Assembly (NCBI RefSeq): GCF_020510565.1
Contig: NZ_CP075189.1
Location: forward strand, 2,526,501 to 2,590,500
From: Ferribacterium limneticum
GTDB lineage: Bacteria > Pseudomonadota > Gammaproteobacteria > Burkholderiales > Rhodocyclaceae
Direction: 5' to 3'
DNA length: 64,000 nucleotides
Shown piece by piece: positions 3,414 through 60,147 of this stretch; the stretch's first letter is position 1, and each line of letters opens with the position of its first letter. The position numbers were made by a program, and so were the translations under genes. The notes under the pieces are model-generated. The model ran no database searches, was not told where the DNA came from, and saw only the letters and a list, made by a program, of their open reading frames with translations.

Positions 3414-6400
3414 GCACTTCCGACAACTGCGGCTGCTGTGCCGGCGTCACGCCGCTCACCCCGGTCGACGACATCCAGCCGCCCGGCCAGCCGGCGTTGG
3501 CGCTGCGCGTTGGCACCCACGGCCGCTTCCGGCAAAGCATGCTGGCCGACCTCGCTGACGAACCCGCCCTCGAAAGCCTGACCACCCGCGCCAGCGACGA
3601 CCCGGCCATCGCCCTGCTCGACAGCTGGGCCGCCGTACTCGATGTGCTGAGCTTCTACCAGGAACGCATCGGCAACGAGAACTACCTGCGTACCGCCACC
3701 GAACGCCGCTCGGTGCTCGAACTGGCCCGCGCCATCGGCTACGAACTGCGCCCTGGCGTGGCGGCATCGACCTGGCTCGCCTTCACACTCGAAACCGCAC
3801 CCGGCGCGCCGCTCGAAACCCGCATCGACATCGGCGCCCGCGCCCAGAGCGTGCCCGGCCAGGACGAAACAGCACAGACCTTCGAGACACTCGAAGCGAT
3901 CGACGCCAAGGTGCGCTGGAATTCCCTGCCGGTGCTGGCCGCCGAGGCTGTCCCGCCGCGCATGGGCCTGCGCACGATCTACCTGGCCGGCACGGCAACC
4001 CGCCTGCAGGCCGGCGACGCCCTGCTCATCGTCGGCGACGAACGTGCCAAGGACCCCGGCAACGAAAACTGGGATTTCCGCCGCGTCACCCGCCTGCGCG
4101 AAGTGCTGCCCGCCGACCCGAGCGACCCGAAAGACATCGGCTACACGGTCGTCACGCTCGATCGGGGCCTGGGCAAACCCTGGCATGGCGTCCATCCGGC
4201 CCGCACCAATCCGCGCTGCTACGCCCTGCGCGCCCGCGCCCACCTGTTCGGCCACAATGCCCCCGACTGGCGGGCGATGCCGGCCAACCTGCGCGCCACC
4301 TACCTCGGCATGGACGACGATGCGAGGCCGCCGATCAGCCAGCATCCGGAATGGCCGGGCTTCACGCTGGCCGATATTTCCGATCCGCCAGCCGGCAGCG
4401 CCAGCGGCACCGGGCTCCTTGGTCAGTACTACCGGGGCAAGGGATTCCGCGAACTGATACTGAGTCGAACCGACGCGACCGTCGACTCGTCGACCTGGAC
4501 CGGCGGCAGCCCTCACCCGAGCGTTCCCACCGACAACTTTTGCGCCCGCTGGTCGGGCTGGGTCGAGGCGCCAAGCAGCGGCTTGTATACCTTCTATGCA
4601 ACCATCGACGACGGGGTCCGCCTGTGGATCGATGGCGAATTGCTCATCAACGACTGGACCGACACCCCAGGCGTACATACCTGCACAGTCAGCCTGCGCG
4701 CCAACCACAAACACGACATTCGCCTCGAGTTTTACGAAAATGCTGGCGGCGCCACCTGTCAGCTGGCGTGGTCCGGACCAGGTGTCACGCAGGCCATCAT
4801 TCCCGCCGCCCGCCTCTACCCGCGGGACATCCATACCGTTCACCTCGACGCCAGCTACCCGAAATGGCTGGCCGACGGATGGGCCGTCATGTCCATCCCG
4901 AATTACGAAGAGGTCTATCGCATCGTCAGCACCGAGGACGACGCCCGGGCCGACTTCACCGTCTCGGCCACCGCCACCCGCCTGACGCTGAGCGGCGAAA
5001 ACCTGCGCGACACCTTCAACAACCATGTCCGCAGCACCACGGCTTTCGGCCAGTCCGAGCCGCTCGACTGGGCCACCCGGCCGCTCTCCGGTTTCCTGCA
5101 GGGTCACCTGATCGACCTCGCCAGCTACGAGCCGGATCTACCGGAAGGCCGCTGGCTGGCCATCTCCGGCCTCGTGCTGGCTGACGTTCCGGCCAATGCC
5201 AAGGCCCTGAGCCGGCTCAAGAAAGGTGACGCGCTGGCCGCCATCCGCATCGCCCGCGACCGCAAGACGGCCAATTTGGAATTTGAGGATTTTTTCCGGT
5301 TGACCGTGGCACTCGCCCCGGCTGCCGAAATCGTCCGCATCCAGCATAACGACAGCACTAGCGGCCGCACGCAATTGCTGCTCGACAGCGATCTGACCCA
5401 CGCCTACCTGCCATCCACCGTCCGCATCAACGCCAACCTTGCCCCGGCCAGCGCCGGCGACAGCAAGCAGATGCGCATCCAACCCGAGCCTCTGGGCAGC
5501 GGCGACGGCAGCCGCAGCCTGCAACGTTTCGCCCTGCGCCAGGGGCCGCTGACCTACATCACCGCCGCCACGCCGAGCGGCACGGCGAGCACCCTCGAAA
5601 TCCGCGTCGACGGCCTGCTCTGGCAGGAAGCGCCGCGCTTCACCGCACCCGGCCCGACCGAGCGTGCCTACACCGTGAAGCTCGACGAAAACGGCAGTGC
5701 CACCGTGCAGTTCGGCGACGGTGTGCATGGCACCCGCCTGCCCACCGGCAGCGGCAATGTCGAAGCGCGTTACCGCGTCGGCCTCGGCACGGCCGGCAAC
5801 GTCAAGGCCGAGCAGATCAGCATGCTGCTCACCCGGCCACCCGGCCTTAAAGCTGTCACCAACCCGGTCGCCGCCAGCGGCGGCACCAATGCCGAAGCCG
5901 GCGACGAAGCCCGGCGCAACGCCCCGCTGCGGGTCAGAACGCTCGACCGCATCGTCTCGCTACGCGATTTCGAAGATTTCGCCGCCGCCTTCACCGGCAT
6001 AGGCAAGGCCCAGGCCGTCTGGCTCTGGGACGGCGAACAACGCATGGTCCATTTGACCGTCGCCGGCACCGACGGTGCCCCGCTCGACCCGAATGCCGCG
6101 CTCTATCGCAACCTGCTCGTCGCCATCGACGGCGCCCGGCCGCCGTACCAGCCGCTGCGTGTCAGCCCCAGCCGCGACCTGCGTTTCGGTCTGACCGCCG
6201 GGCTGTGGATCGCTGCTGACTACGAAGCCGAGAAAGTTCTTGCCGCTGCCAGCCAAGCCCTTGCCACCGCCTTCGGTTTCGCCGCCCGCGCCTTCGGCCA
6301 ACCGGTCACCGGCAGCGAGGTACTGGCCGCGCTGCAAGGTGTCGCCGGCGTTATCGGCGCCGATCTCGACAAACTGATTCAAGTCGACTCCGGCCTCACC

Positions 6401-6532
6401 ATCCTCACCTCGAACGGCCCCGATGGCAGCATCCCGGCTCGCAGCGCCCGCTGGCAGGGCAACAGCCTGCAACCGGCCGATCTGCTGCTGATCGACCCAA
6501 CGGCCGTCACCCTCACGGAGCGCACGTCATGA
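3410..6532 (+). CDS. Second baseplate assembly protein with inserted PA14 domain
   Basis: A 1040-aa J-like baseplate protein (Afp12-like position) overlapping the previous stop by four bases. The N-terminal part has LADEPALESLTTRASDDPA and a YQERIGNENYLRTATERRS helix typical of this family. The C-terminal half repeats the J motif (VQFGDGVHGTRLPTGSGN, then GTAGNVKAEQIS). Between residues about 333 and 470 a complete PA14-type beta-barrel interrupts the family fold. It breaks the sequence between RLFGHNAPDW-like and IHTVHLDASYPKW segments that I expect to be nearly adjacent. A copy of the dispersed 40-bp repeat is translated at about residues 620-635 (FEDFFRLTVAL). The stop overlaps the next ATG. 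Confidence 0.82.
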   Translation: MSTSDNCGCCAGVTPLTPVDDIQPPGQPALALRVGTHGRFRQSMLADLADEPALESLTTRASDDPAIALLDSWAAVLDVLSFYQERIGNENYLRTATERRSVLELARAIGYELRPGVAASTWLAFTLETAPGAPLETRIDIGARAQSVPGQDETAQTFETLEAIDAKVRWNSLPVLAAEAVPPRMGLRTIYLAGTATRLQAGDALLIVGDERAKDPGNENWDFRRVTRLREVLPADPSDPKDIGYTVVTLDRGLGKPWHGVHPARTNPRCYALRARAHLFGHNAPDWRAMPANLRATYLGMDDDARPPISQHPEWPGFTLADISDPPAGSASGTGLLGQYYRGKGFRELILSRTDATVDSSTWTGGSPHPSVPTDNFCARWSGWVEAPSSGLYTFYATIDDGVRLWIDGELLINDWTDTPGVHTCTVSLRANHKHDIRLEFYENAGGATCQLAWSGPGVTQAIIPAARLYPRDIHTVHLDASYPKWLADGWAVMSIPNYEEVYRIVSTEDDARADFTVSATATRLTLSGENLRDTFNNHVRSTTAFGQSEPLDWATRPLSGFLQGHLIDLASYEPDLPEGRWLAISGLVLADVPANAKALSRLKKGDALAAIRIARDRKTANLEFEDFFRLTVALAPAAEIVRIQHNDSTSGRTQLLLDSDLTHAYLPSTVRINANLAPASAGDSKQMRIQPEPLGSGDGSRSLQRFALRQGPLTYITAATPSGTASTLEIRVDGLLWQEAPRFTAPGPTERAYTVKLDENGSATVQFGDGVHGTRLPTGSGNVEARYRVGLGTAGNVKAEQISMLLTRPPGLKAVTNPVAASGGTNAEAGDEARRNAPLRVRTLDRIVSLRDFEDFAAAFTGIGKAQAVWLWDGEQRMVHLTVAGTDGAPLDPNAALYRNLLVAIDGARPPYQPLRVSPSRDLRFGLTAGLWIAADYEAEKVLAAASQALATAFGFAARAFGQPVTGSEVLAALQGVAGVIGADLDKLIQVDSGLTILTSNGPDGSIPARSARWQGNSLQPADLLLIDPTAVTLTERTS
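4406..4822 (+). other. PA14-type domain inserted in baseplate protein
   Basis: This segment encodes residues about 333-470 of the baseplate protein. It has the order of PA14 signatures: GLLGQYYRGKGF at the start, then DNFCARWSGWVEAPSSGLY, then TIDDGVRLWIDGELLIND, then HDIRLEFYENAGGATCQLAW, and an IIPAARLYP exit. The acidic DDGVRLWIDG core is the usual sugar and calcium-binding region of PA14 adhesin and glycosidase domains. A short Gly/Ser linker (GSASGTG) precedes it, as expected for a module dropped into a loop. Confidence 0.85.
5271..5313 (+). repeat. Dispersed 40-bp repeat, copy 1 (in baseplate gene)
   Basis: Contains the core TTTTTTCCGGTTGACCGTGG preceded by an A/T-rich arm (CAATTTGGAATTTGAGG). 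It is inside the coding sequence and read as FRLTVA in the gene's frame. Orientation is plus (GGTTGACC on the top strand). Confidence 0.75.
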
Positions 6533-8667: not shown

Positions 8668-8707
8668 CCCCATTCAGTATCCCTAGACAAAAACCGGGAG
8701 AGACACA

Positions 8708-12086: not shown

Positions 12087-12129
12087 ATTTCAATTTTGGG
12101 CTTTTTTCCCGGTTGACCGTGGAAGTCAC
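12087..12129 (+). repeat. Dispersed 40-bp repeat, copy 2 (intergenic)
   Basis: CATTTCAATTTTGGG, then CTTTTTTCCCGGTTGACCGT and GGAAGTC. One of the fullest copies, located just beyond the stop of the zinc-ribbon membrane protein gene. Confidence 0.85.
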
Positions 12130-14303: not shown

Positions 14304-14401
14304 GATGACTCCTCGGCAAACCCGGAGGGACAGCAATTATGCCATGGCGCATAAGCCGTGCGCTTGCCCGGAAAACGGCTAGAATCCTGCCCGCACTCTC
14401 T

Positions 14402-14438
14402 CCTACGGTCGACCGGCTTTTTTGCCCAAAATTCAAAG
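14402..14438 (-). repeat. Divergent copy of the dispersed repeat before parE
   Basis: CCTACGGTCGACCGG followed by CTTTTTTGCCCAAAATTCAAAG. It keeps the ACGGTC-ACCGG core and the AAAATTCAAA arm but with several substitutions. It ends three bases before the parE start codon, where a ribosome site should be. Confidence 0.45.
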
Positions 14439-14441
14439 CGA

Positions 14442-21857: not shown

Positions 21858-23765
21858 ATGACTGCTGCCCCCCCCCGCATCCTGAGCATCATCCCGCCGA
21901 TGACCCAGCTCAACACGCCCTACCCGGCGACCGCCTACCTGACCGGTTTCCTGCGTTCGCGCGGCTTTCATGCCGAGCAGACCGACCTGGCCCTGGCGCT
22001 CGTGCTGGAACTGCTCTCGCCGGCCGGCCTGCCGAAGATCAAGGCGGCGGCGGAAGCGATCCCCGGCAAGAAGCGTTCGAATACGATCAAGATTTTCCTC
22101 AACGAGTTCGAGCGCTACCAAGCCAGCATCGGCCCCGCCGTCGCACTGCTGCAGGGTCGTGACGGCTCGATTGCCCACCGCATCTGCACCCGCGCCTTCC
22201 TGCCTGAGGGGCCGCGCTTCGCTTCGCTCGACAACTATCTCGATGAAGACGGCGGCGACCCGCTGGCCTGGGCTTTCGGCTCGCTCGGCGTGCAGGACCG
22301 GGCACGGCATCTGGCCACGCTCTACCTCAACGACCTTGCCGACGTGCTGCGCGAGGCGGTCGACACCCGCTTCGAATTCGTCCGCTACGCCGAATCGCTG
22401 GCCCAGAGCCAGGCCAGCTTCAATCCGCTGGCCACGGCGCTGGCCGCACCGCCGACCCTGGTCGATACGACACTTCAAAATTTGGCAAAATTTCCGGTTG
22501 ACCGTAGCAATCCGGACATCGTGCTCATTTCCGTGCCCTTCCCCGGCTCGGTCTATGCCGCCTTCCGCATCGCCCAGACGATCAAGGCTTACCGGCCAAA
22601 CATCATCACCGTACTCGGCGGCGGCTACGTCAATACCGAGTTGCGCGAACTGGCCGAGCCGCGCGTTTTCGATTACTTCGACTACGTCACGCTCGACGAT
22701 GGCGAAAAACCGTTGCTCGCGCTATTCGAACACCTCGCCGGTCAGCGCCCGCGTCTCAACCTCGTCCGCACCTTTACCCGCGTCGATGGCTCCGTGCGCT
22801 ACTTCAATGCCAGCGAGCCGGACATTCCCTTCGAGGAAGTCGGCACGCCGACCTGGGACGGCCTGCCGCTCGACCGCTACCTGTCGCTGCTCGACATGCT
22901 CAATCCCATGCACCGGCTGTGGTCCGACGGCCACTGGAACAAGCTGACCGTCGCCCACGGCTGCTACTGGAAAAAATGCAGCTTCTGCGACGTCAGCCTC
23001 GACTACATCGGCCGCTACGACGCCGCCAGCGCCAAGGTTCTGGTCGACCGCATCGAACAGATCATCGCCGAAACCGGCCACACCGGCTTTCATCTCGTCG
23101 ACGAAGCCGCCCCGCCGAAAGCCCTGCGCGCCCTGGCAGAAGAACTCCAGCGACGCAACCTGGCCATCTCATGGTGGGGCAACATCCGCTTCGAAAAATC
23201 CTTCACGCCCGAACTCTGCCTGCAACTCGCCGACAGCGGCTGCATCGCCATTTCCGGCGGGCTGGAAGTCGCCTCCGACCGCCTGCTCGAATTGATGAAA
23301 AAAGGCGTCTCGGTCGATCAGGTCGCCCGCGTCACGCGCGCCTTCACGGATGCCGGCGTGCTTGTCCATGCTTATTTGATGTACGGCTTCCCGACGCAAA
23401 CCGTGCAGGACACGGTCGATGCCCTCGAATACGTCCGCCAGCTATTCGCCGAAGGTTGCATCCAGTCCGGCTTTTTCCACCGCTTTACGTGCACCGTGCA
23501 TTCCCCCGTCGGACAGAACCCGGCCGAATACGGCATCAAGCTGCAACCGCTACCGCCCGGCAAGTTCGGCAAAAACGACGTGCATTTCATCGACCCCACC
23601 GGCGTCGATCACGACCGCCTCGGCAAGGCGCTCAACAAGGCGCTCTACAACTACATGCACGGCATTTGCCTCGACCAGGATGTGCGTAGCTGGTTCGACG
23701 AAAAAGTACCGAAGTCCCGCGTCGCCCGAAACTTCATCGCCCGGGCTTTGCAGACTCCTCGTTAA
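21858..23765 (+). CDS. B12-binding-domain radical SAM protein
   Basis: A 635-aa protein. The N-terminal part opens with PPRILSIIPPMTQLNTPYPAT, typical of class B radical SAM enzymes that track a cobalamin-binding fold. The middle contains PDIVLISVPFPGSVYAAFR and VLGGGYVNTELRE, the Rossmann-like cobalamin part. The radical SAM cluster is CYWKKCSFCD (Cys-x3-4-Cys-x2-Cys), followed by HLVDEAAPPKALRALAEEL and a GGLEVASDRLLELMKKG segment. Substrate unknown. A dispersed repeat copy at 22473-22510 is translated as LAKFPVDRS between the two halves. Transcribed alone. Confidence 0.85.
   Translation: MTAAPPRILSIIPPMTQLNTPYPATAYLTGFLRSRGFHAEQTDLALALVLELLSPAGLPKIKAAAEAIPGKKRSNTIKIFLNEFERYQASIGPAVALLQGRDGSIAHRICTRAFLPEGPRFASLDNYLDEDGGDPLAWAFGSLGVQDRARHLATLYLNDLADVLREAVDTRFEFVRYAESLAQSQASFNPLATALAAPPTLVDTTLQNLAKFPVDRSNPDIVLISVPFPGSVYAAFRIAQTIKAYRPNIITVLGGGYVNTELRELAEPRVFDYFDYVTLDDGEKPLLALFEHLAGQRPRLNLVRTFTRVDGSVRYFNASEPDIPFEEVGTPTWDGLPLDRYLSLLDMLNPMHRLWSDGHWNKLTVAHGCYWKKCSFCDVSLDYIGRYDAASAKVLVDRIEQIIAETGHTGFHLVDEAAPPKALRALAEELQRRNLAISWWGNIRFEKSFTPELCLQLADSGCIAISGGLEVASDRLLELMKKGVSVDQVARVTRAFTDAGVLVHAYLMYGFPTQTVQDTVDALEYVRQLFAEGCIQSGFFHRFTCTVHSPVGQNPAEYGIKLQPLPPGKFGKNDVHFIDPTGVDHDRLGKALNKALYNYMHGICLDQDVRSWFDEKVPKSRVARNFIARALQTPR
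22473..22510 (+). repeat. Dispersed 40-bp repeat, copy 3 (in radical SAM gene)
   Basis: CTTCAAAATTTGGC, then AAAATTTCCGGTTGACCGTA. Read as FPVDRS, a different frame from copy 1. Confidence 0.75.
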
Positions 23766-34213: not shown

Positions 34214-35545
34214 TTAGCGCGGCATTAACGCACTGAGCTGAGTAACGATTTCGGCAAACAGCGGGCGGGCCGAGACGTTTTCCTGCGCGCAATCGGCTTG
34301 CAGGCATTTCAATTTTTGAGCTTTTTTCCGGTTGACCGTGGAATCGGCACTCTGCCCGCAAAGTTCGAGCAATTCTTCGAGTAAACACGAAAACGCCCGC
34401 ACCTCGATACGCTGCAGGGCCTTGGCGACGAGCGGATCATCGGACGGCACGAAGGACGCGGCGCCGAAGTCACCGAGCAGCGCCTGTCCATCGGTACCAT
34501 GCAGGATGTTGTGGCCGTACAGATCGCCATGCGTGATGCCCTGGGCGTGCAGGTGTTCGGCCGCCGAGGCGATGCCGAGCGCGAGGCGAATGGCGTCGTC
34601 GAGGTCGAAACTGGACTCGGCCGGATAAACGTCGCGCGTGCAGGAATCGAGGCTGGGCGGCCCGGCCAGGTTGCGGAAGTTGCTGTCGATCAGCGCCATG
34701 ACCAGCCCGTGCGCCGCCTCCGGGTGCGCCGCCAGCTTGCCGAGGACCGGAATCAGATTGGGATGCGCACCGGCTGTCATGCAGGCGTTCATCTCGTTGA
34801 GCGGCAAACCATCGCTCGTCATCGCGCCCTTGAACAGCTTGAGCGCTACCGGCTGCGCGCCGCCGGCCGAGCGCCATTCGGCATGATGGATGACGCCGGA
34901 AGCGCCCTCGCCCAGTTGATGACTGACGTGGAGGTCATCCCAATGAATGGGTGAAACGCCGTTCTGAACCGGCACATCCTGGCAAAACGGATTGCCGGCG
35001 AAGGCCAGCCAGGAAAGTTTCGGCAGCGTCAGCAGCCAGTCGGGCAAAGCCGCAAGCTCGTTGGCCGCGATGCGCAGCAACTCCAGCCCAGTGCAATTGG
35101 CCATCTCGGCCGGCAGCGCACGCAACTGGTTGCCGGCCAGCATGAGCTTCTGCAAACGGGTGCAGCGGCCAATTTCGCGCGGCAGTTCGACCAACTCGTT
35201 GTCAGTCAGGATCAGCCAGCGCAGCCTGGCCGGCAGCGCCGCAGCCGGCACCAGCCGAATCCGGTTGGCCTTGAAACCGACCATGTCCAGCGCGGCACAC
35301 TGACCGAGCACCGCCGGCAATTCGGTGAACCGGTTGTCCGAACAAAACAGGATGCGCAGCTTGTACAGCCGTGGCAGATCGTCGGGCAGCGTGGCCAGCG
35401 CATTCCCAGACAAATCGAGAATCTCCAGCGTCTCGGCCAGACCAAAAATTTCGCGCGGAAACTCGCTCAGGCCACTGGCCAGTTTGAGGCGACGGCTCCC
35501 GGCCAGCTTGCCGGCGCGCAGGTCTTCAAGGGTGTTCAGTGGCAT
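34214..35545 (-). CDS. Leucine-rich-repeat and protein kinase fusion
   Basis: A 443-aa protein. Residues about 15-205 hold seven or eight leucine-rich repeats of about 23 residues (LEILDLSGNALATLPDDL, LRWLILTDNELVELPREI, LQKLMLAGNQLRALPAEM). Residues about 220-430 form a Hanks-type kinase: glycine loop LGEGASGVIHHAEW, VALKLFKG with the ATP-binding Lys, catalytic loop HGDLYGHNIL and DFGAASF for metal binding. HGD in place of HRD is a non-RD feature. The dispersed repeat is translated near the C-terminus as TVNRKKAQKLKC. Such LRR-kinases are sporadic in proteobacteria. Targets unknown. Confidence 0.85.
   Translation of the reverse strand: MPLNTLEDLRAGKLAGSRRLKLASGLSEFPREIFGLAETLEILDLSGNALATLPDDLPRLYKLRILFCSDNRFTELPAVLGQCAALDMVGFKANRIRLVPAAALPARLRWLILTDNELVELPREIGRCTRLQKLMLAGNQLRALPAEMANCTGLELLRIAANELAALPDWLLTLPKLSWLAFAGNPFCQDVPVQNGVSPIHWDDLHVSHQLGEGASGVIHHAEWRSAGGAQPVALKLFKGAMTSDGLPLNEMNACMTAGAHPNLIPVLGKLAAHPEAAHGLVMALIDSNFRNLAGPPSLDSCTRDVYPAESSFDLDDAIRLALGIASAAEHLHAQGITHGDLYGHNILHGTDGQALLGDFGAASFVPSDDPLVAKALQRIEVRAFSCLLEELLELCGQSADSTVNRKKAQKLKCLQADCAQENVSARPLFAEIVTQLSALMPR
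34305..34346 (+). repeat. Dispersed 40-bp repeat, copy 4 (in LRR-kinase gene)
   Basis: CATTTCAATTTTTGAG followed by CTTTTTTCCGGTTGACCGTG. It is antisense to the gene and read there as TVNRKKAQKLKC. Confidence 0.85.
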
Positions 35546-36576: not shown

Positions 36577-36622
36577 AAAATTTCATTTTTTGCCGTTATT
36601 TCCGGTTGACCGTGGGAGTCAC
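36577..36622 (+). repeat. Dispersed 40-bp repeat, copy 5 (intergenic)
   Basis: CAAAATTTCATTTTTTGCCG, then TTATTTCCGGTTGACCGTGG and GAGTCACGG, in the gap between the DUF3597 gene and the 3' end of the isochorismatase gene. Confidence 0.85.
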
Positions 36623-37269: not shown

Positions 37270-37667
37270 GCTGCTTCTCCAATCAGCTTCCCGGCTTTGC
37301 GCGCCGCCTGCGTTTGCCCATCGTAACCCCAGCTTTCGGCCGGCAGTTCGTGCAGCGCGACGTAGATCGGCGCGGCGGTTTGGCCGATTGCTACGGTCAA
37401 CAGGGATTTTGCGGCAAAAATGAAATCAGCCTTTTCGGCCGCGCTGTTGGTGCCGGCGGTAATCATCGCCTGCAGGCTGGCTGCAGCGGCGACGGCCTGT
37501 CCGTTGGCCGAGAAGGCGCCGGCCGGCAACTGCGTGAAGCTGACCACGGTGAGCGCCGCTTCCTTGCGCAGGATGCTCTGCATGAGGCGTGTCGTTTCCT
37601 GCTGCAAGTGCTGAATGGTGCTCGGCGCGAGGCTGGCGCCGGCCAGGGTGATGTTGATCAGGGGCAT
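37266..37667 (-). CDS. Tautomerase-family protein
   Basis: A 133-aa protein. ATG 37667 is chosen so that the processed protein starts with the catalytic Pro (MPLINITLAG), as in 4-oxalocrotonate tautomerase and MIF relatives. The rest shows QHLQQETTRLMQSIL, SFTQLPAGAFSANG and YVALHELPAESWGYDGQTQ, the last being the substrate-side loop of this family. The dispersed repeat at 37390-37428 is translated as DFIFAAKSLLTVA. It is first gene of the operon with isochorismatase. Confidence 0.83.
   Translation of the reverse strand: MPLINITLAGASLAPSTIQHLQQETTRLMQSILRKEAALTVVSFTQLPAGAFSANGQAVAAAASLQAMITAGTNSAAEKADFIFAAKSLLTVAIGQTAAPIYVALHELPAESWGYDGQTQAARKAGKLIGEAA
37390..37428 (-). repeat. Dispersed 40-bp repeat, copy 6 (in tautomerase gene)
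   Basis: GCTACGGTCAACAGG, then GATTTTGCGGCAAAAATGAAA. The second base of the CC pair and part of the A-run are altered. It lies in the same sense as the gene on the minus strand and is read as SLLTVAI. Confidence 0.65.
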
Positions 37668-37754: not shown

Positions 37755-38672
37755 ATGGACACAATCAACCCACTCGATCATTTGTCCGACCTTGCCGTTT
37801 TCGTCCGGGTCGTCGATACGCAAGGCTTTTCAGCGGCGGCGCGGGCCATGGGCCTGACCAAATCGGCCGTCAGCAAGCGTATCAACCGGCTCGAAAAGCA
37901 GCTCGGCCTGCGCCTGCTGCAGCGCACGACACGCGCCATGTCGCTGACCGAACCCGGCCGCGTGCTTTATGAACGCGCCGCACAGGGCGTCGCGCTGCTC
38001 GACGAAAGCGCCCGCCTGGCCGCCGGTCTGGTCGAGGCGCCGCGCGGCACCTTGCGCGTCACCGCCTCGGTCACTTTCGGCAAGCTTTGCCTGGCGCCGC
38101 TGATCCCCGAATTCCTCGCCCGCTACCCGGAAATCGAGCTGCAACTGACCCTGCTCGACCGCTTCGTTGATCTCGTCGAGGAAGGCTACGACGTCGCCCT
38201 GCGCCTGACCCGCACGCCGCCCGACCAAGTGGTGGCCAAGGCGCTGATGCCCGTACGCTACCGGCTATGTTCCACGGTCAACGCGATAAAAGGCCAAAAA
38301 ATCGAAACGCCGGCCGACCTCGCCGGCCACAACTGCCTGCATTACGGCCTGCGCGAACTGGGCAGCGAATGGCGTTTCCAGCGCGCTGGCGAAGAGGCGC
38401 GGGTGCGCGTAACGAGCAACGTCGTGGTCAATAACAGCGAAGTCGTGCGCGACCTGCTGCTCGCCGACATGGGCATCGGGCTGGTCTGGAACTACGCCGT
38501 CGATCGCGAAATCGCCGATGGCCGGCTGATTCCGCTGCTTCCCGAATGGACGCCGGTCAGCCCCTTCGGCCAGACGGCCTGGGCGATCTGGCTGCCGCAA
38601 ACCCACCTGCCGCCGAAGATTCGCGTCTTTGTCGATTTCCTTGCCGAGCGTTTGGGCGAAACGCCGGCCTAA
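37755..38672 (+). CDS. LysR-family transcriptional regulator
   Basis: A 305-aa regulator. The N-terminal winged helix is LSDLAVFVRVVDTQGFSAAA, RAMGLTKSAVSKRINRLEKQ and LGLRLLQRTTRAMSLTEPG. The substrate-binding domain has GTLRVTASVTFGKLCLAPLI, typical of the CrgA-like subgroup. It is divergent from the tautomerase/isochorismatase operon, which it probably regulates (inference from position). A dispersed repeat copy (38271-38308) is translated as STVNAIKGQKIET in the effector domain. ATG 37755 is preceded by an A/T-rich stretch holding overlapping promoters for both directions. Confidence 0.92.
   Translation: MDTINPLDHLSDLAVFVRVVDTQGFSAAARAMGLTKSAVSKRINRLEKQLGLRLLQRTTRAMSLTEPGRVLYERAAQGVALLDESARLAAGLVEAPRGTLRVTASVTFGKLCLAPLIPEFLARYPEIELQLTLLDRFVDLVEEGYDVALRLTRTPPDQVVAKALMPVRYRLCSTVNAIKGQKIETPADLAGHNCLHYGLRELGSEWRFQRAGEEARVRVTSNVVVNNSEVVRDLLLADMGIGLVWNYAVDREIADGRLIPLLPEWTPVSPFGQTAWAIWLPQTHLPPKIRVFVDFLAERLGETPA
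38271..38308 (-). repeat. Dispersed 40-bp repeat, copy 7 (in LysR gene)
   Basis: TCCACGGTCAACGCG, then ATAAAAGGCCAAAAAATCGA. The CCGG is mutated but arm and core align. It is read as TVNAIKGQKIE, the same frame as copies 4 and 11. Confidence 0.55.
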
Positions 38673-38701
38673 GCACCCCACTTCGCGCCCCGTGCAGCGA
38701 A

Positions 38702-38741
38702 TGCCACGGTCAACCGGAAATTTCGGCAAAAATTGAAATTT
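38702..38741 (-). repeat. Dispersed 40-bp repeat, copy 8 (intergenic)
   Basis: TGCCACGGTCAACCGG, then AAATTTCGGCAAAAATTGAA. It lies 30 bp after the LysR stop and just before the terminator. Confidence 0.85.
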
Positions 38742-40529: not shown

Positions 40530-42950
40530 ATGACCGACCAGTTGAAACTTTTCGACCCGAACGCCCCACTTCCTGCCGCCGAGACAGAACTCGCAGCGAG
40601 TCCGGAACCACTTCCGGCTGCCGAAAACGCAGCGGAAACCGCCCTGCCAGTCATGAACGAATCCCCTGCCGGCGAAGCGGGCGACATCGACCCACCTGAT
40701 TTGCCCCCATCCGCCAGCGGCCCGGCCGGCGACATTCCCTCGCCAGCCGACTACGCCGCCCGCCGCTATCTTGAATACGCCATGAGCGTCGTCACCGGCC
40801 GCGCCCTGCCCTCGGCCGCCGACGGCCAGAAGCCGGTGCAGCGCCGCATTCTCTACGCCATGCACCGGATGGGCCTGTACAAGAGCCCGCGCCACGTCAA
40901 ATCGGCGCGCGTCGTCGGTGACGTCATCGGCAAATACCACCCGCACGGCGATTCGTCGGTCTATGACGCGATGGTCCGCATGGCGCAGGACTGGAGCCTG
41001 CGTTACCCGATTGTCGATGGTCAGGGCAACTTCGGCTCGCGCGACGGCGACAACGCCGCCGCCATGCGCTACACCGAAGCCCGACTGACGCCGATTGCCG
41101 AACTGTTGCTGGCCGAACTCGATGAAGGCACGGTCGACTGGAAGCCCAACTACGACGGCGCCAATGATGAACCAGCCCTGCTCCCGGCCCGCCTGCCCTT
41201 CTGCCTGCTCAACGGTGCTTCCGGCATTGCCGTCGGCATGGCCACCGAAATTCCCGCCCATAACCTGCGCGAAGTGGCGAATGCTGCGGTCAACCTGATA
41301 AAAGACCCGAATTTCACAGAAGAACAGGTGCTGGCGCTGATCCCCGGCCCGGATTACCCGGGTGGCGCTCAGATCATCTCGACAGCCGAAGAAATCGCCG
41401 CCACCTACCGCAGCGGCCGCGGCAGCCTGCGCGTGCGCGCCAAATGGAAAATCGAAAACCTCGCCCGCGGCCAGTGGAAACTGGTTATCACCGAATTGCC
41501 GCCGGGCGTGTCGACGGCCACCGTGCTGTCGGAAATCGAAGCCTGCTCGAACCCCGTCGCCAAGGAAAAAGCCGGCAAGAAGGTGTTCACGCCGGAACAG
41601 CTCAACCTGAAAGCCGCCTTCCTGTCGTCGATTTCGGAAAGCGGCGTGCGTGACGAATCGGGCAAGGAACACGCCGTTCGCCTGGTCATCGAACCGGCTT
41701 CGTCGCGCCAGGGCCAGGACGACCTCGTGCGCATGCTGCTCGCCCACACCAGCCTCGAAACCAACGCCTCGATCAACCTGACCGTCCTCGGCGTCAATGG
41801 CACGCCGCGCCAGGCATCGCTGTACAGCATGATCGCCGAATGGTGCCGCTTCCGGCTGGCTACCGTCGAGCGCCGCACGCGCCACCGCCTGACCGCCGCC
41901 GAAAAGCGGATCCACATCCTGGAAGGCCGCTTGGCGGTGCGGCTCGACATCGACAAGGTGATCAAGGTCATCCGCGAATCGGACGACCCGAAGGTCGATC
42001 TGATGGCGCACTTCAAGCTGTCCGAAATCCAGGCCGAAGACATCCTCGAAATCCGCCTGCGCCAGTTGGCGCGGCTGGAAGGGATCAAGATCGGCGAAGA
42101 GCTGGCCAAGCTGCGCGAAGAAGCGGCCGGCCTCAACAAGCTGCTCGATTCCGAAGAAGCCCTGCGCGCTTGCGTTGCGGCTGAAATCGAAGGCGACGCC
42201 AAGAAATATGGTGACGACCGCCGCACCTTCATCGAAGCCGCCGACAAGGTCACCATGTCGGATGCCAAGACCGTCTCCATCGTAGACGAGCCGACCACGC
42301 TGATCGTTTCGAAACACGGCTGGCTGCGCTCGCGCCAGGGCCACAACATCGATCCGACCCAACTCTCTTTCCGCTCCGGCGACGAACTGCTGGCCTGTTT
42401 ACCCTGCCGGACGGTCGATAACCTGATCCTGCTCGACACCAAGGGCCGCGCCTATTCGATCCCCGCCTCGGACATTCCCGGCGGCAAGGGCGATGGCGTT
42501 CCGGCCACCTCGCTGGCCGATTTCCAGGATGGCGGCAAACCCTGCCTGGCCATGGCGATCAAGAACGAAGCGCTGTATCTGGTTGCAGCCAGCGGCGGCT
42601 ACGGCTTCCGCTGCCAGGGTGCCGATCTCCTGTCACGCGGCAAGGCTGGCAAGGCCTTCATGACGCTGTCCGAAGGCGAAATGCCTGTCGTTTTCGCCCC
42701 GGCGCCGCAAGGCGAAATTGCCTGTGTGACCAAAGATGGCCGCGCGCTGGTCTTCAATATCGACGAAGTTCGCCAGCTGCCGAAAGGCCGCGGTCTCAAG
42801 CTGATCGATGCCGACCCCGGCAAGACGGCGCTGGAAGAAATCATTCCGGTCGTCGATGGAATTGCCGGCAAGCTCAAGGGCGAACGCCTGGAATTCTGTC
42901 GCGGCAACCGTGGCGGCAAGGGCAAGCCGATGAAAGCGCCGCGCAAATAA
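40530..42950 (+). CDS. parC: DNA topoisomerase IV subunit A
   Basis: An 806-aa breakage-rejoining subunit. A Pro/Ala-rich N-terminal extension (about residues 1-68) precedes the conserved start [20 protein letters not shown]. The drug-resistance region is [20 protein letters not shown] with the catalytic Tyr in [18 protein letters not shown]. The CAP coiled coil is followed by a degenerate C-terminal pinwheel ([38 protein letters not shown]). The long extension is unusual compared with E. coli ParC. It stands alone, 24 kb from parE. Confidence 0.95.
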
Positions 42951-46955: not shown

Positions 46956-48308
46956 ATGACCTTCTCCGCCCTCGGCCTTGCCGAAACGCTGCTCCAGTCC
47001 CTCGAAACGCTCGGCTACAAGACGCCGACGCCGATTCAGGAGCAAGCCATTCCCGCCATCCTTGAAGGGCGCGACGTGATGGCCGCAGCCCAGACCGGCA
47101 CCGGCAAGACCGCCGGCTTCGCGCTGCCCATCCTGCACAGCCTGGCCACCGATGATATCAAGGTCGGCAGCAATTCCGTGCGCGCCCTCGTCCTCGTGCC
47201 GACGCGCGAACTGGCCGAACAGGTCCACGCCAGCTTCCGCCAGTACGGCGAACACAGCGGCGTCAGCACCTACGCGGCCTACGGCGGCGTCAGCATCAAC
47301 CCGCAGATGATGCGCCTGCGCCGTGGCGTCGATGTCCTCGTCGCCACCCCCGGCCGCCTGCTCGATCTGTATAGCCAGAACGCCCTCAAACTCAACAAGG
47401 TGCAGGTGCTCGTCCTCGACGAAGCCGACCGCATGCTCGACCTCGGCTTCTCGAACGAACTCGACGCCGTCTTTGCCGCCCTGCCCAAAAAGCGGCAAAC
47501 CCTGCTCTTCTCGGCCACCTTCTCCGAAGTCATCCGCAGCCTGGCCAAAGCCCGCCTGCGCAACCCGCTGACCATCGAAATCAGCCCGCCCAACAGCACC
47601 GTCAAGGCCGTCAAACAGTGGATGGTGCCCGTCGACAAGAAGCGCAAGACCGAACTCTTCCTGTTCATGCGCAAGGACCGGAAATGGGGCCAGGTGCTTG
47701 TTTTCGTCAAGACCAAGCGCGGCGCCGACGAACTGGTTAGCATCCTGCACGCCAAGCGCATCAAGGCCGATGCCATCCACGGCGACAAACCGCAACCGGC
47801 CCGCCTGCGTGCGCTGGAAAGCTTCAAGGCCGGCGAAGTGCAAATCCTCGTCGCCACCGACGTCGCCGCCCGCGGGCTGGACATCGACGACCTGCCGCAA
47901 GTCGTCAATTTCGACCTGCCCATCGTCGCCGAAGACTACATCCACCGCATCGGCCGCACCGGCCGCGCCGGCGCCACCGGCGAAGCCATCTCGCTGGTCT
48001 GCGCCGACGAAGCCCCGATGCTCGCTGCCATCGAAATACTGCTCAAACAAACGCTAAGCCGCGAAGAAGAACCGGGCTTCGAACCCGACCACCGCATTCC
48101 GCTGACCGGCGCCGCTGCAATCGCCGCCAAGAAGATCAAAAAACCAAAGGTAGCCGGCGGCCGAGGCGGCAAAGGCACACCGAGCAACTGGGTCGGCTTC
48201 GACGACGCCCCCAAACGTCCCGGCGCCAGGCCGGCAGCCCGCCCGGGTGGAATGCCACGGTCAACCGGAAAAAACGGCCAAAAACAAAATCGGTCGGGCG
48301 GGCGCTGA
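46956..48308 (+). CDS. rhlE: DEAD-box RNA helicase RhlE
   Basis: A 450-aa helicase. I chose ATG 46956 for the conserved MTFSALGLAETLLQSLETLG start. Motifs: Q motif YKTPTPIQEQAIP, Walker A AAQTGTGKTAGF, PTRELAEQ, TPGRLLDL, Walker B VLDEADRMLDLGF, FSATFS, then C-terminal domain with VFVKTKRGADEL, DVAARGLDID and HRIGRTGRAGATG. It assists rRNA maturation and cold adaptation. The basic tail (about residues 400-450) contains a translated copy of the dispersed repeat (RSTGKNGQKQNRSGGR) as its very end. Confidence 0.94.
   Translation: MTFSALGLAETLLQSLETLGYKTPTPIQEQAIPAILEGRDVMAAAQTGTGKTAGFALPILHSLATDDIKVGSNSVRALVLVPTRELAEQVHASFRQYGEHSGVSTYAAYGGVSINPQMMRLRRGVDVLVATPGRLLDLYSQNALKLNKVQVLVLDEADRMLDLGFSNELDAVFAALPKKRQTLLFSATFSEVIRSLAKARLRNPLTIEISPPNSTVKAVKQWMVPVDKKRKTELFLFMRKDRKWGQVLVFVKTKRGADELVSILHAKRIKADAIHGDKPQPARLRALESFKAGEVQILVATDVAARGLDIDDLPQVVNFDLPIVAEDYIHRIGRTGRAGATGEAISLVCADEAPMLAAIEILLKQTLSREEEPGFEPDHRIPLTGAAAIAAKKIKKPKVAGGRGGKGTPSNWVGFDDAPKRPGARPAARPGGMPRSTGKNGQKQNRSGGR
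48252..48290 (-). repeat. Dispersed 40-bp repeat, copy 9 (3' end of rhlE)
   Basis: ATGCCACGGTCAACCGG, then AAAAAACGGCCAAAAACAAA. Read as PRSTGKNGQKQN, the last residues of RhlE before RSGGR. Confidence 0.85.
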
Positions 48309-49063: not shown

Positions 49064-49140
49064 TGGTGCGCCCGGAGCGATTCGAACGCCCGACCCCTTG
49101 GTTCGTAGCCAAGTACTCTATCCAGCTGAGCTACGGGCGC
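49064..49140 (-). tRNA. tRNA-Arg(ACG), downstream copy
   Basis: A 77-nt cloverleaf with acceptor GCGCCCG / CGGGCGC and encoded CCA. The D arm is GCTCAGCTGGATAGAGT, the anticodon stem is CTTGG / CCAAG around CTACGAA, and the T loop is GTTCGAATC. The anticodon ACG (read as ICG) decodes CGU, CGC and CGA. Confidence 0.95.
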
Positions 49141-49200
49141 ACACCTAAACTGCTTTTTACTGCTTTGCCGAAATTTTCAACCTTCGGCGGGTTGTTCTGC

Positions 49201-49277
49201 TGGTGCGCCCGGAGCGATTCGAACGCCCGACCCCTTGGTTCGTAGCCAAGTACTCTATCCAGCTGAGCTACGGGCGC
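49201..49277 (-). tRNA. tRNA-Arg(ACG), upstream copy
   Basis: Identical in sequence to the copy at 49064-49140, with a 60-bp spacer between them. Both are on the minus strand and should be cut from a single transcript. Confidence 0.95.
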
Positions 49278-51606: not shown

Positions 51607-52154
51607 TACCGCTTGCCTCCGTTCGGACTGACTACGCGCGGGCGCGGGATCAGCGTTTGTTCGATATTGGCCAGGCTGTCGAGTTTTTCCTGCAGCTCGG
51701 CGGTCTTGCGCTGGCTGTCTTTCAATTGCTGGCCCTGTTTTTCCAGCTGGCTTTCGAGTTTCATGCGTTCCTGGTAGTTGTCGGCGAGTTGCCGGGCCAG
51801 CGGGTGAAAAGGCGCCGCTGCCGGTTCGTTCGATTTGAGTACGCCTTCGAGCAGCGCCAGCCCCTTGCCGAGATCCTGCTGGACGCGCGGATGGCCAAGC
51901 AGCAGCGCCATCCTGACCTGCGTGAAGGGCGTCTGCGGCACGGCGACGAGCACCGACCGTTCGCGCCCCAGCTCGGCCGGCGTCAGGCGCGACAGGCTTT
52001 GGTTATAGAGCAGCGCGCCCTCCGGGCTGGGGTCGTCGAGGTGCAGTTTCCTGGCCAGCGGGCCGGAAGCGCAGCCTGCTACGGTCAACCCGAAAAACAG
52101 GCCAAAAATGAAAACCGCCACGCGGCGGGAAAACGTCGGGTATTTACTGCTCAT
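51606..52154 (-). CDS. qseG: QseG-like lipoprotein
   Basis: A 182-aa lipoprotein between the kinase and regulator genes. Signal and lipobox are VAVFIFGLFFGLTVAGC, part of which (FIFGLFFGLTVAG) is encoded by a copy of the dispersed repeat. The mature protein is helix-rich with a C-terminal coiled coil (ERMKLESQLEKQGQQLKDSQ). In E. coli, QseG binds the periplasmic part of the GlrK/QseE kinase and modulates it (established). ATG 52154 overlaps the kinase stop. Confidence 0.83.
   Translation of the reverse strand: MSSKYPTFSRRVAVFIFGLFFGLTVAGCASGPLARKLHLDDPSPEGALLYNQSLSRLTPAELGRERSVLVAVPQTPFTQVRMALLLGHPRVQQDLGKGLALLEGVLKSNEPAAAPFHPLARQLADNYQERMKLESQLEKQGQQLKDSQRKTAELQEKLDSLANIEQTLIPRPRVVSPNGGKR
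52079..52115 (-). repeat. Dispersed 40-bp repeat, copy 10 (in QseG-like signal peptide)
   Basis: CTACGGTCAACCCGAAAAAC followed by AGGCCAAAAATGAAAACC. Same sense as the gene and read as FIFGLFFGLTVAG, ending one residue before the lipobox Cys. Confidence 0.75.
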
Positions 52155-53547
52155 CAGGTATTTCCACACAAAAATGGGCGCCCGTTTCTTGCGGGACGAG
52201 GTACACCGTGCCGCCCATCGCCCGCACCAGCTCGCGCACGATGGAGAGACCAACGCCGCTGCCCTGGCGCGGCGCCGGTGCGACGCGCTGGCCCTGGACG
52301 AAGGGATCGAAAATGCGTTGCTGGTCCTCCTCAGCGACGCCCGGTCCCTGATCGATACATTCGAAGCGCCAGAGGCCTTCAATGTGACTGACCGAGAGGT
52401 GGATTTCACCGTTTTCCGGGCTGAAATCGATGGCATTGGACAACAGATTGTCCAGTACGACCGTCATTTTCTCGGCGTCGAGCATGGCCGTTTCCTGCGA
52501 GGACTCGATGACGATCTTCAACTGTCGCGACTGGCTGTGCAGTTCGCGGCGCTGGGCCACCGTACTGAGCAGCCGGCGCAGCCGGGTCGGGGCAATTTGC
52601 AGGCGACGCGCCTCGAAGGCGGCGGCATTGAGCGTCAGCAGGCTTTCGATTTGCTGCTGCAGGCCGATCACGTTGTGCTGGAGGATATCGACCACCTCGC
52701 GCTGCCCTGCCGCCAACGGTCCGGGGACTTCCTCGCGGAGCAGCGAGACGCCTTCCTTCAGTGCCGTCAGCGGCGTTTTGAGTTCGTGCGAGACATGGCG
52801 CAAGGCCCGCTCGCGGTCCGCCTCCAGCTCGGCCAGACGCTGGCGCAACCAGTCCAGCCGCTTGCCGAGTTGGCGCAAGTCGGCCGGGCCGCTGACCGTG
52901 ATGGCTTCATCGAAACGGCTGGCGCCGAGCCGGATGATGGCCTGCTCAAGGTGGCGCACCGGCCGAACCAGCCACCAGCCCATGGCCAGCGCGACGAGCA
53001 GCGCGCCACAGAGGGCCAGGGCAATGCGCCCGCCGAGACGCAAGCGGTTGGTCTCGAGGTCTTCCAGCGACTTGCGATTCTGCCCTTCGATCCAGCGCTG
53101 ACCAGCCTGCTTCAACAGGCCATCGAGCTCAGCCATGCGGGCCAGCAGCGGAATGATCTCGGCTTGCGGAATATTCTGATCAAGACCGCTGCGCAACGCC
53201 TCGGCCACCATGCGCCAACCGCCGAGCAAGGGCTGGAGCGGTTCGGCGGCCAGCGTATCGAGCCGGTCGACGACCGCCAGCGACTGGCTCAGGTGTTCGT
53301 CGAAGCGCAGGCGGAAAACGGGGTTGTCGAGCACCAGATATTGCCGCGCGCTGCGTTCGATATCGACGGTACGTTCGCCAAGCTCCTGGATCGACGCCGT
53401 CAACTGGATGGCCTGCTCGCTGCTGCGCCGGCTCTGATCGACCAGCCGCTCGACGACGAGCCAGCTTTGCACCGCCGCGCCGCCCAACAGCAGGACGATC
53501 AGGGCAAAGCCAAGCAACATGCCCTGGCGGAAGGAAATTCGATTCAT
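52144..53547 (-). CDS. glrK: Sensor histidine kinase, GlrK/QseE-like
   Basis: A 467-aa membrane kinase. TM1 lies at residues about 8-28 and TM2 at about 160-185. Between them is a periplasmic helical bundle (SIQELGERTVDIERSARQYL). A HAMP region (VRPVRHLEQAIIRLGASRFD) and dimerisation helix with H-box LRHVSHELKTPLTALKEGVS follow. The ATPase part shows LDNLLSNAIDFSPENGEI, ECIDQGPGVAEEDQQRIFDP and GSGVGLSIVRELVRAMGG. It probably phosphorylates the adjacent GlrR-like regulator. Its start is 356 bp from the divergent bactofilin gene. Confidence 0.9.
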   Translation of the reverse strand: MNRISFRQGMLLGFALIVLLLGGAAVQSWLVVERLVDQSRRSSEQAIQLTASIQELGERTVDIERSARQYLVLDNPVFRLRFDEHLSQSLAVVDRLDTLAAEPLQPLLGGWRMVAEALRSGLDQNIPQAEIIPLLARMAELDGLLKQAGQRWIEGQNRKSLEDLETNRLRLGGRIALALCGALLVALAMGWWLVRPVRHLEQAIIRLGASRFDEAITVSGPADLRQLGKRLDWLRQRLAELEADRERALRHVSHELKTPLTALKEGVSLLREEVPGPLAAGQREVVDILQHNVIGLQQQIESLLTLNAAAFEARRLQIAPTRLRRLLSTVAQRRELHSQSRQLKIVIESSQETAMLDAEKMTVVLDNLLSNAIDFSPENGEIHLSVSHIEGLWRFECIDQGPGVAEEDQQRIFDPFVQGQRVAPAPRQGSGVGLSIVRELVRAMGGTVYLVPQETGAHFCVEIPDEQ

Positions 53548-56915: not shown

Positions 56916-56961
56916 GAAATTTCAATTTCGGCCATTTTTTCGGGTTGACCGTAGCAGTCAA
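56916..56961 (+). repeat. Dispersed 40-bp repeat, copy 11 (intergenic)
   Basis: GAAATTTCAATTTCGGCC, then ATTTTTTCGGGTTGACCGTA and GCAGTC. It lies directly after the ettA stop and before its terminator. Confidence 0.85.
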
Positions 56962-58248: not shown

Positions 58249-58254
58249 GGCGCC

Positions 58255-60147
58255 ATGACCCGAATTCAACACCCCCTCGAACTCCTCGCCCCGGCCAAGA
58301 ACGCCGATTTCGGCATTGAAGCCATCAAACACGGGGCCGACGCCGTCTACATCGGCGGCCCGGCTTTCGGCGCCCGTTACGGCGCCGGCAACGATGTCGC
58401 CGAAATCAAACGGCTCTGTGATTTCGCCCACCGCTTTCGCGCCAGGGTCTTCGTCGCGCTCAACACCATCCTGCGCGACGACGAGCTCGAAGACAGCCGC
58501 CAACTCGCCTGGCAACTTTACGAAGCCGGCGCCGATGCGCTGATCATCCAGGACATGGGTTTGCTTGAACTCGACCTGCCGCCGATCCAGCTCCACGCCA
58601 GCACGCAGACCGATAATCGCAACGCCGACAAGGTCAAGTTTCTCGAAGATGTCGGCTTCTCGCAGGTCGTTCTGGCGCGCGAATGCAGCTTAAACGAAAT
58701 TATCAATATTGCTTCGCAAACCAATGTTTCATTGGAATATTTTGTTCACGGCGCGCTGTGCGTTGCATTCAGCGGCCAGTGCTACATCAGCCAGGCCCAC
58801 ACCGGGCGCAGCGCCAACCGCGGCGAGTGTTCGCAGGCCTGCCGCCTGCCCTACACCCTGGTCGACGACAAGGGTAAAACCATCACCGAGAACCAGCATC
58901 TGCTGTCGATGAAGGACAACAATCAGACCGCCAACATGCTCGAACTGGCCCGCGCCGGCGTCTGCTCCTTCAAGATCGAGGGGCGACTCAAGGACCTCAG
59001 CTACGTCAAGAACATCACCGCGCACTATCGCGGCCTGCTCGACCAGATCATCGCCAATAACCCGGAATTCACCCGCGCCTCGAGCGGTCGCAGCACTTAC
59101 ACCTTCACGCCGCAGCCGGACAAGACATTCAACCGCGGCTACACCGATTATTTCGCCAACGACCGTCAGGACGACATCGGCGCCTTCGATTCGCCCAGTT
59201 TCGTCGGTGAACTGATCGGCGAGGTCGTCGAGATTGGCGACGGCTGTTTCACCGTCAATGCCGAAAAGCCCTTCAACAACGGCGATGGCGTCTGTTTCTA
59301 CGACGCCCACGGCGAAGTCGTCGGCATGCGCATCAACCGGGCCGATGGCAAAACCCTGTTCCCGGCCGAAATGCCTGAAGAACTGACCGAGGGCGCCAGC
59401 CTCTTCCGCAACCGTGACCAGGAATTCGAGCGCTCACTGGAGAAAGAATCGGCTGACCGTCGCATTTCAGTCAAACCGGTGCTGACCGAAACCGAAGACG
59501 GCTTCACGCTGACCCTGACCGACGAAGATGGCGTGAATGTTACGGTCAACCGGAAAAACGGGCCAAAATCAGAATGGCAACTGGCCCAGAACCCCGAAGC
59601 GGCGATGGCCAAGCTCACCGAAAACCTCGGCAAATTCGGCAACACCATTTTCGTCGCCGAGCCGGTTGAATTAAAGCTCAGCCAGCCCTGGTTCCTACCC
59701 GTCAGCGCCATCAACGCCCTGCGCCGCGAAGCCACCGAACAGCTCGAAGCCGCCCGCATCGCCAGCCACCCGCGCCCGCCGCGCGCCGCCCCGGCCGCCA
59801 ACCCGGCGCCCTACCCACAGGAAGAACTGACCTATCTCGGCAACGTCTTCAACGCCAAGGCCCGCCAGTTCTACGAGAAACACGGCGTCAAGCTGATCGA
59901 GGAAGCCTACGAGGCCGGCAACGAAAAAGGCATGGTCTCGCTCATGATCACCCGCCACTGCCTGCGCTACAGCTTCAACCTGTGCCCGAAGGAAGTGAAA
60001 CACCTCAAGCCGGACCCGATGACGCTGATCAACGGCAACGAAAAGCTGATTCTCAAGTTCGACTGCAAAGCCTGCGAAATGCACGTCGTCGGCAAGATGA
60101 AGAAGGGCGTGACGCTCAACCTCGGGACCATCCGCCCCGCCGCCTGA
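58255..60147 (+). CDS. rlhA: U32-family 23S rRNA hydroxylation protein RlhA-like
   Basis: A 630-aa U32 protein. The start ELLAPAKNADFGIEAIKHGA, then DAVYIGGPAFGARYGAGNDV, matches E. coli YdcP/RlhA rather than the shorter TrhP. Cys for the iron-sulfur or catalytic site lie in FVHGALCVAFSGQCYIS and RGECSQACRLPY; GVCSFKIEGRLKD is the DUF3656-side motif. RlhA hydroxylates C2501 of 23S rRNA with prephenate (established for E. coli). A dispersed repeat copy is translated as TVNRKNGPKSEW near residues 428-440. The C-terminal KFDCKACEMHVVGKMKKG is typical. Confidence 0.87.
   Translation: MTRIQHPLELLAPAKNADFGIEAIKHGADAVYIGGPAFGARYGAGNDVAEIKRLCDFAHRFRARVFVALNTILRDDELEDSRQLAWQLYEAGADALIIQDMGLLELDLPPIQLHASTQTDNRNADKVKFLEDVGFSQVVLARECSLNEIINIASQTNVSLEYFVHGALCVAFSGQCYISQAHTGRSANRGECSQACRLPYTLVDDKGKTITENQHLLSMKDNNQTANMLELARAGVCSFKIEGRLKDLSYVKNITAHYRGLLDQIIANNPEFTRASSGRSTYTFTPQPDKTFNRGYTDYFANDRQDDIGAFDSPSFVGELIGEVVEIGDGCFTVNAEKPFNNGDGVCFYDAHGEVVGMRINRADGKTLFPAEMPEELTEGASLFRNRDQEFERSLEKESADRRISVKPVLTETEDGFTLTLTDEDGVNVTVNRKNGPKSEWQLAQNPEAAMAKLTENLGKFGNTIFVAEPVELKLSQPWFLPVSAINALRREATEQLEAARIASHPRPPRAAPAANPAPYPQEELTYLGNVFNAKARQFYEKHGVKLIEEAYEAGNEKGMVSLMITRHCLRYSFNLCPKEVKHLKPDPMTLINGNEKLILKFDCKACEMHVVGKMKKGVTLNLGTIRPAA
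59538..59576 (-). repeat. Dispersed 40-bp repeat, copy 12 (in rlhA)
   Basis: GTTACGGTCAACCGGAAAAA followed by CGGGCCAAAATCAGAATG. Read as TVNRKNGPKSEW. Confidence 0.8.

Follow-up and report, generated by a model that had tools for sequence, protein, structure and literature searches.

The 64,000-nucleotide stretch of Ferribacterium limneticum analyzed here (contig NZ_CP075189.1, positions 2,526,501 to 2,590,500 of the forward strand; hereafter the window) encodes, among others, a radical SAM/B12-binding protein, a LysR protein, a ParC/GyrA-like protein, and a peptidase U32, and each of these genes contains a copy of one 41-base motif. A matrix scan located 14 copies in the window, six on the plus strand and eight on the minus strand; by our own gene caller, nine are coding and five intergenic (Table 1). 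The original prediction, made from the letters of the window, had described a dispersed repeat family occurring in both orientations and inside many genes, with at least eight copies in coding sequence and translated in several frames, and all of this was borne out. The 13 copies listed there were recovered, including the altered ones near 37390 and 38271 and a degenerate one near 14402, and we add another at 41279. With up to three mismatches allowed, TTTTTCCGGTTGACCGT matches 12 sites in the window, compared with 0.09 expected from shuffles. We propose that the motif is probably a DNA uptake signal, of the type represented by the uptake signal sequence (USS) and the DNA uptake sequence (DUS), and that it serves Azonexus/Dechloromonas, environmental betaproteobacteria. 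Azonexus belongs to the Rhodocyclales within the Betaproteobacteria. Below, G000 denotes the window genome and other G-numbers denote relatives; 76 genomes represent the genus.

Table 1. Copies of the 41-base motif in the window, with matrix scores (ORF, open reading frame; positions are those of the window)
Feature	Position	Strand	Context	Score
Motif copy	5274..5314	+	Coding, ORF 3410-6532 (PA14 + Baseplate_J, Pfam)	54.7
Motif copy	12087..12127	+	Intergenic	61.6
Motif copy, degenerate	14398..14438	-	Called intergenic; start of ORF 14358-16391 uncertain, could include the copy	41.4
Motif copy	22472..22512	+	Coding, radical SAM/B12-binding ORF 21858-23765; same net length in motif-free relatives	54.6
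Motif copy	34306..34346	+	Coding, leucine-rich repeat/kinase ORF 34214-35545 on the opposite strand (Pfam)	54.9
Motif copy	36580..36620	+	Intergenic; also in relative G080	62.1
Motif copy	37386..37426	-	Coding, tautomerase-like ORF 37266-37700; kept in G067, G080, G002; gapless replacement in G035, G026, G027	49.7
Motif copy	38267..38307	-	Coding, LysR ORF 37755-38672; gapless replacement in G071, G035, G027, G026	39.7
Motif copy	38699..38739	-	Intergenic, directly downstream of the LysR ORF	63.1
Motif copy, weakest in the window	41279..41319	-	Coding, ParC/GyrA-like ORF 40530-42950; aligned to 20 relatives	37.7
Motif copy	48250..48290	-	Called coding	62.8
Motif copy	52074..52114	-	Called coding, spanned by ORF 51606-52436	53.3
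Motif copy	56919..56959	+	Intergenic	62.0
Motif copy	59535..59575	-	Coding, peptidase U32 ORF 58255-60147	52.4

The family extends over the whole chromosome. The exact 15-base core TTTCCGGTTGACCGT occurs 379 times in the 4.15-Mb window genome (control 0), divided into 195 plus-strand and 184 minus-strand copies with both replichores pooled, in agreement with the hundreds of genomic copies that had been anticipated. A matrix trained on the genome scored 104 copies in 537 kb, whereas the reversed sequence gave none. As 98 of the 111 hits scoring above 5 in this sample also score above 25, the copies stand clearly apart from noise. A looser, dialect-neutral pattern gave 825 matches (control 3), and we place the copy number at about 800 per window genome.

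Registering 30 further genome copies on the core revealed information shared over 41 columns, with the window-genome consensus ATTTCAATTTTGGCCnWWWTTTCCGGTTGACCGTRGVAWTC. From 5' to 3', its parts are ATTT, CAATTTT, GGCC, a variable base, WWWTTT, CCG, GTTGACCG, T, RG, V, A, and a weak WTC, and the positions of GTTGACCG are each conserved at 87-100%. The main A/T blocks occupy positions 7-11 and 17-22 at a spacing of about 10-11 bp, or one helical turn, and A and T frequently exchange within them, an indication of DNA shape more than of letters. All A/T tracts lie to one side of the core, giving the unit an asymmetric profile. Thus the earlier statement that the repeat is not a palindrome holds for the whole unit, but the inner core GGTYGACC is nearly palindromic; relative G085 carries the full palindrome ACGGTCGACCGT in many copies. 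The exclusion of repetitive extragenic palindromes (REP) and enterobacterial repetitive intergenic consensus (ERIC) elements also stands, given the asymmetric profile and the 43 of 89 sampled copies that lie inside genes. Read on the opposite strand, the motif presents the core followed by A/T segments, as does the USS of Pasteurellaceae in the excerpted description of PMC1626085.

How the copies arose was examined by aligning their sites with those of relatives. Enough flanking sequence was available for 102 of the 104 copies, 47 of which could be aligned; filtering to a single row for each combination of site and genome took the 153 alignments down to 127, loci from the scan of GTDB genomes being kept per locus rather than per genome. 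The motif was present in 49 comparisons, where equal length follows by definition because such rows require 41 bases, and absent in 78 (35 sites), which agrees with the expectation that many orthologues would lack it. Among the motif-absent comparisons, 62 of 78 showed a net length change of 0, with a largest loss of 6 bases and a largest gain of 20, and a gap of approximately 41 bases was seen in none of the 78; control windows showed net 0 in 159 of 168. Over all rows, motif present or absent, the flank-to-flank distance was 41 in 104 of 124, the others ranging from 14 to 68 apart from two above 1,300, and none was near 0. Because motif-free relatives keep the site length, the motif bases have been rewritten in place, even against the protein sequence. 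Nucleotide identity to motif-absent relatives is 0.64 within the motif compared with 0.83 in the flanks, so about 15 of 41 bases differ. Such a difference matches the account given for Neisseria, where, in the portion of PMC2397512 available to us, a new DUS is often too diverged from the homologous sequence for point mutation and probably arrives via recombination. For USS, a non-insertional origin was established by the same reasoning from length (PMC1626085, in extract).

The rewriting is visible at the protein level. With identical rows and rows with gaps at the motif dropped, coding copies compared with motif-free relatives have an amino-acid identity of 0.61 in the motif codons and 0.91 beside them (42 alignments, 19 sites); against motif-bearing relatives, the values are 0.87 and 0.93 (33 alignments, 12 sites). 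A DNA-level function therefore overrides protein sequence at the coding copies. A codon offset is preferred, with 13 of 17 same-strand copies sharing one and 16 of 26 opposite-strand copies sharing another.

Location statistics were drawn from 89 copies in 444 kb of the larger stretches of the window genome sample, with genes called by our own hexamer-based caller in place of standard annotation. Coding sequence holds 43 copies, intergenic sequence 45, and one straddles a boundary, compared with a random expectation of 71.6, 14.3, and 3.1. Copy density is highest in convergent gaps (18 in 14.6 kb) and lower in divergent gaps (7 in 18.5 kb), with 19 copies in 35.5 kb of co-directed gaps. The median spacing is 3.6 kb, and 3 of 86 spacings fall below 500 bp.

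The motif is spelled differently across the genus. Word counts in 100-120 kb samples of relatives gave five spellings in six sampled genomes, all built around YGACCG: CCGGTTGACCGTRGVA in G000; GTCGACCGTGAAA in G085; GTCGACCGCGnCA in G030, in a set to which the close sister G032 contributes one 20-kb stretch; GTCGACCG in G063, where the right side differs, is not fixed, and the top-scoring word is GTCGACCGCT; and CCGACCGTAGCATT in G029 and G093, also counted in G097. In all six sampled motif genomes, an A/T block lies upstream of the core, 15-20 bases from its first base; the second block, closer to the core, is strong in G000, G029, and G093, of moderate strength in G085, and weak in both G030 and G063. 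G012 shares the left part and core of the window dialect and has another right side (362 exact 15-base cores, 53 with RGNAW); two copies were seen there. Similar samples of approximately 100-120 kb from G035, G016, G071, G084, G064, and G018 yielded no dialect that stood out. A further G018 dialect hinted at by TGTCGGAAAT (8 copies) was rejected, as the flanks of these copies share no A/T tracts.

By the neutral pattern, 41 of the 76 genus genomes reach 100 copies or more, with a maximum of 921 (control 0-8 per strand), and three further genomes contain 188-336 copies of the G029/G093 dialect, making 44 of 76 Azonexus/Dechloromonas genomes motif-rich. The remainder comprise 12 genomes with 20-86 copies and 20 with fewer than 20; near-absence is exemplified by G035 (13 matches, control 2) and G026 (7, control 0). 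None of 393 sampled genomes from other genera of the same order, seven of them from the same family, exceeded 11 matches with this pattern, which is blind to motifs with another core. Among the genomes searched, the motif is thus elevated only in Azonexus/Dechloromonas. At least 120 stretches of GTDB species genomes carry it, and the matches listed come from roughly a dozen genomes whose titles read Azonexaceae, Azonexus, Dechloromonas, Rhodocyclaceae, or more loosely (Betaproteobacteria HGW-4 and HGW-6, 'Gammaproteobacteria' OSL_B.mb.10, and Proteobacteria CTSoil_121), together with single matches in a Stenotrophomonas and a Pseudomonas. When 30 genomes are placed on a ParC tree, the rich/poor label requires seven changes, three of them forced by well-supported branches, and motif-poor G035 groups with eight rich genomes.

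Foreign DNA was also inspected. In G002 (contig C33, about 109.6-143.3 kb), comEC is split by a 33.7-kb element encoding a large serine recombinase, a family-B DNA polymerase, a Type ISP restriction enzyme, and CHAT and DUF4917 proteins. This one element contains 0 motif copies compared with about 6 expected from the 719 copies in 4.2 Mb. By disabling DNA uptake, an element inside comEC might escape removal by transformation. G068 also has comEC in two pieces, separated by about 32.5 kb. The longest motif-free gap in the window genome sample, 41.7 kb (G000 2674585-2716249), carries genes for a phage-type integrase and a ParM-like actin close to one side, plus ordinary signalling genes, and is perhaps an integrated element plus neighbouring genes. 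Among viral contigs, five stretches carry the exact core, and a phage origin of the motif was rejected on that count.

Three other explanations were weighed. A mobile insertion element, whether a unit like the Rickettsia palindromic element (RPE), a miniature inverted-repeat transposable element, or a retroposed unit, would be dispersed in and between genes, in both orientations, and patchy among relatives, as the motif is. RPEs likewise sit inside many genes and are read in several frames; they are, however, insertions and palindromic, whereas the present motif is non-insertional and its profile asymmetric. The original prediction had likened the behaviour of the repeat to that of RPEs, and this part did not survive: motif-free sites keep their length, and no empty site, hence no site at which to look for a duplicated target, was seen among the aligned relatives. 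Dialects that share the same register add to the case against an insertion element, which we discard on the unchanged site lengths and to which we leave only a vanishing probability. The prediction's side idea of a binding protein comes closer to the uptake receptor proposed here. A mark of another DNA transaction, such as a Chi-type hotspot, a replication-directing site, or a restriction-modification or methylation site, would agree with the very strong over-representation and with the core GTYGAC, which fits the known recognition site GTYRAC. Chi and KOPS-like sites are, however, short and strand-biased, unlike a 41-bp motif divided 195/184 with the replichores pooled, and a methylation site would need no A/T tracts 20 bp away. 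We regard this class of explanation as very improbable.

The most serious competitor, although still an unlikely one, is a site for a genus-specific chromosome-organising or global regulatory protein with a nucleoid-associated, segregation, or domain-forming role. The fixed 41-bp frame, the A/T tracts one helical turn apart, and the near-palindromic core resemble a protein site, and an organiser also predicts sites spread over the chromosome with none in a mobile element. Against it stand the several dialects within one genus, each genome-wide; the near-absence in G035 and G026; a density that peaks in convergent gaps and is lower in the divergent gaps where promoters lie; and the balance between strands. 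No nucleoid protein is known to have 800 sites that are respelled between sister species. Nor is any other class of bacterial motif known to combine origin in place, override of coding sequence, and genome-wide dialects.

The uptake-signal explanation, which we consider probable, draws these features together. The core, YGACCG with its dialect-specific neighbours, would be the part read by a receptor on the type IV pilus or DNA uptake machinery, while the A/T tracts, offset to one side by one to two helical turns, would ease bending or melting of the duplex at the outer membrane. Motif-bearing fragments would be imported preferentially and then recombined into the chromosome, and copies born of mutation or recombination would be retained and spread through the population. 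Such preferential uptake would account for some 800 copies in both orientations, present in genes yet concentrated where they are least harmful. Drift in receptor specificity could rewrite a genome stepwise into a new dialect, and loss of specificity or competence would let copies decay. Receptor recognition, biased uptake, and drive are what we infer from the genomic pattern. In abundance, consensus, balanced strands, permissive sites, replacement in place, dialects, absence from foreign DNA, and helically spaced A/T segments, the profile matches that of published uptake sequences, as these appear in extracts of PMC12616744, PMC1626085, PMC2397512, and PMC3630211.

By its sequence, the motif belongs to neither the USS nor the DUS family, because its core is YGACCG rather than the GCGG of USS or the CTG of DUS; if the uptake explanation is right, it would represent a third, convergent system. 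The overall layout is closest to the USS of Pasteurellaceae. According to the passages available from PMC1626085 and PMC12616744, USS likewise combine a strong core with a pair of one-sided A/T-rich segments at helical spacing, are non-insertional and commoner intergenically yet also found in genes, and fall into two types (Hin and Apl) with a common inner core. The differences lie in the core (AAGTGCGGT or ACAAGCGGT in USS), in the length (41 nt compared with up to 32 nt) and the third A/T block found here, and in the lower density of about 1 per 5 kb, the lack of close inverted pairs in the sample, and the other bacterial class. The DUS of Neisseriaceae, as covered in parts of PMC3630211, PMC12616744, and PMC2397512, resemble the motif in being family-specific, in numbering hundreds to thousands of copies, in forming dialects around a conserved inner core (CTG), and in being missing from recently acquired genes. 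They differ in being continuous, up to about 13 nt long, without A/T segments, built on another core, and served by a known receptor, ComP. With somewhat less assurance than for uptake itself, we lean toward a third independent self-DNA code with at least five dialects in a single genus and repeated loss, read by a receptor that is at most a distant relative of ComP and ComN/PpdA, with an A/T design convergent with that of Haemophilus.

Several observations weigh against the uptake explanation. ComEC, part of the competence machinery that an uptake signal calls for, was found in 71 of the 76 genus genomes, and in all 51 good ones, and it does not separate motif-rich from motif-poor genomes: many poor genomes have it full-length, while it is broken in rich G002 and G008. 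ComEC is accordingly not supported as the rich/poor switch, given the long frames in many poor genomes and the pieces in G002 and G008; motif-poor G035 has a comEC with an apparent frameshift. Candidate receptors fared no better. The window genome contains a cluster of genes that we take to be fimT-, pilV-, pilW-, pilX-, pilY1-, and pilE-like, from resemblance and order. The PilE-like protein shows 36-51% identity in same-dialect genomes (65% in G077) and 48-50% in motif-poor G018, G022, G027, and G072, and FimT shows 81% in G077 and much less elsewhere; neither is supported as the receptor, since they do not track dialect and vary too much among same-dialect genomes for an obvious candidate. 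Close inverted pairs, usual for USS and DUS, are lacking in the window genome sample, where 0 of 86 spacings fall below 60 bp. Hairpins flank the left edge of 9 of 45 intergenic copies, compared with a 6.5% background, and the right edge of 5 of 45, leaving a weak link to terminators. On the ParC tree, the rich/poor label is not clearly clustered, since 47-50 of 500 shuffles score as low, and many branches are weak. No paper on natural transformation or competence in Dechloromonas was found, judged by title. Finally, at 1 copy per 5 kb, the motif is sparser than the signals of known systems, for which the accessible part of PMC1626085 gives roughly 1 per kb.

Head-to-head pairs do occur in relatives: in G002 (359188+/359211-), in G085, and in G070, where four pairs overlap around a palindromic core. 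Close species show strong differences in the sequence and layout of the fimT/pilE-like region, as if it had been swapped between lineages; its best matches are separated by about 7.4 kb in G000 and G077 and by about 0.5 kb in G002 and G095, where they are weak. Elsewhere in the window, an Rfam scan at gathering scores found two tRNAs only and no known RNA element at the motif, ruling out such an element as its identity; tRNA-Arg(acg) is present as a tandem pair at 49064-49277. The first ORF of Table 1 encodes a 1040-aa protein and is one of four large same-strand ORFs (738-11812), and the ORF at 34214-35545 encodes a bacterial protein that joins leucine-rich repeats to a protein kinase domain.

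The uptake-signal trait has so far been reported in two bacterial families only, and no publication describing such a motif in Rhodocyclales was found, judged by title in a search with most subscription journals and bioRxiv outside its coverage. Neisseria and Pasteurellaceae inhabit host mucosal surfaces, as stated in the part of PMC2397512 at hand, and Azonexus/Dechloromonas come from waste water and aquifers, going by paper titles. If our explanation is true, an environmental third case would mean that the trait is bound neither to mucosal life nor to two lineages. The 76 genomes, which differ in dialect or lack the motif, would offer a natural laboratory for the origin, switching, and decay of such a code, for a receptor search by co-variation, and for the question of whether uptake physically needs the A/T segments. 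Motif-tagged DNA may, in that case, transform these organisms more easily.

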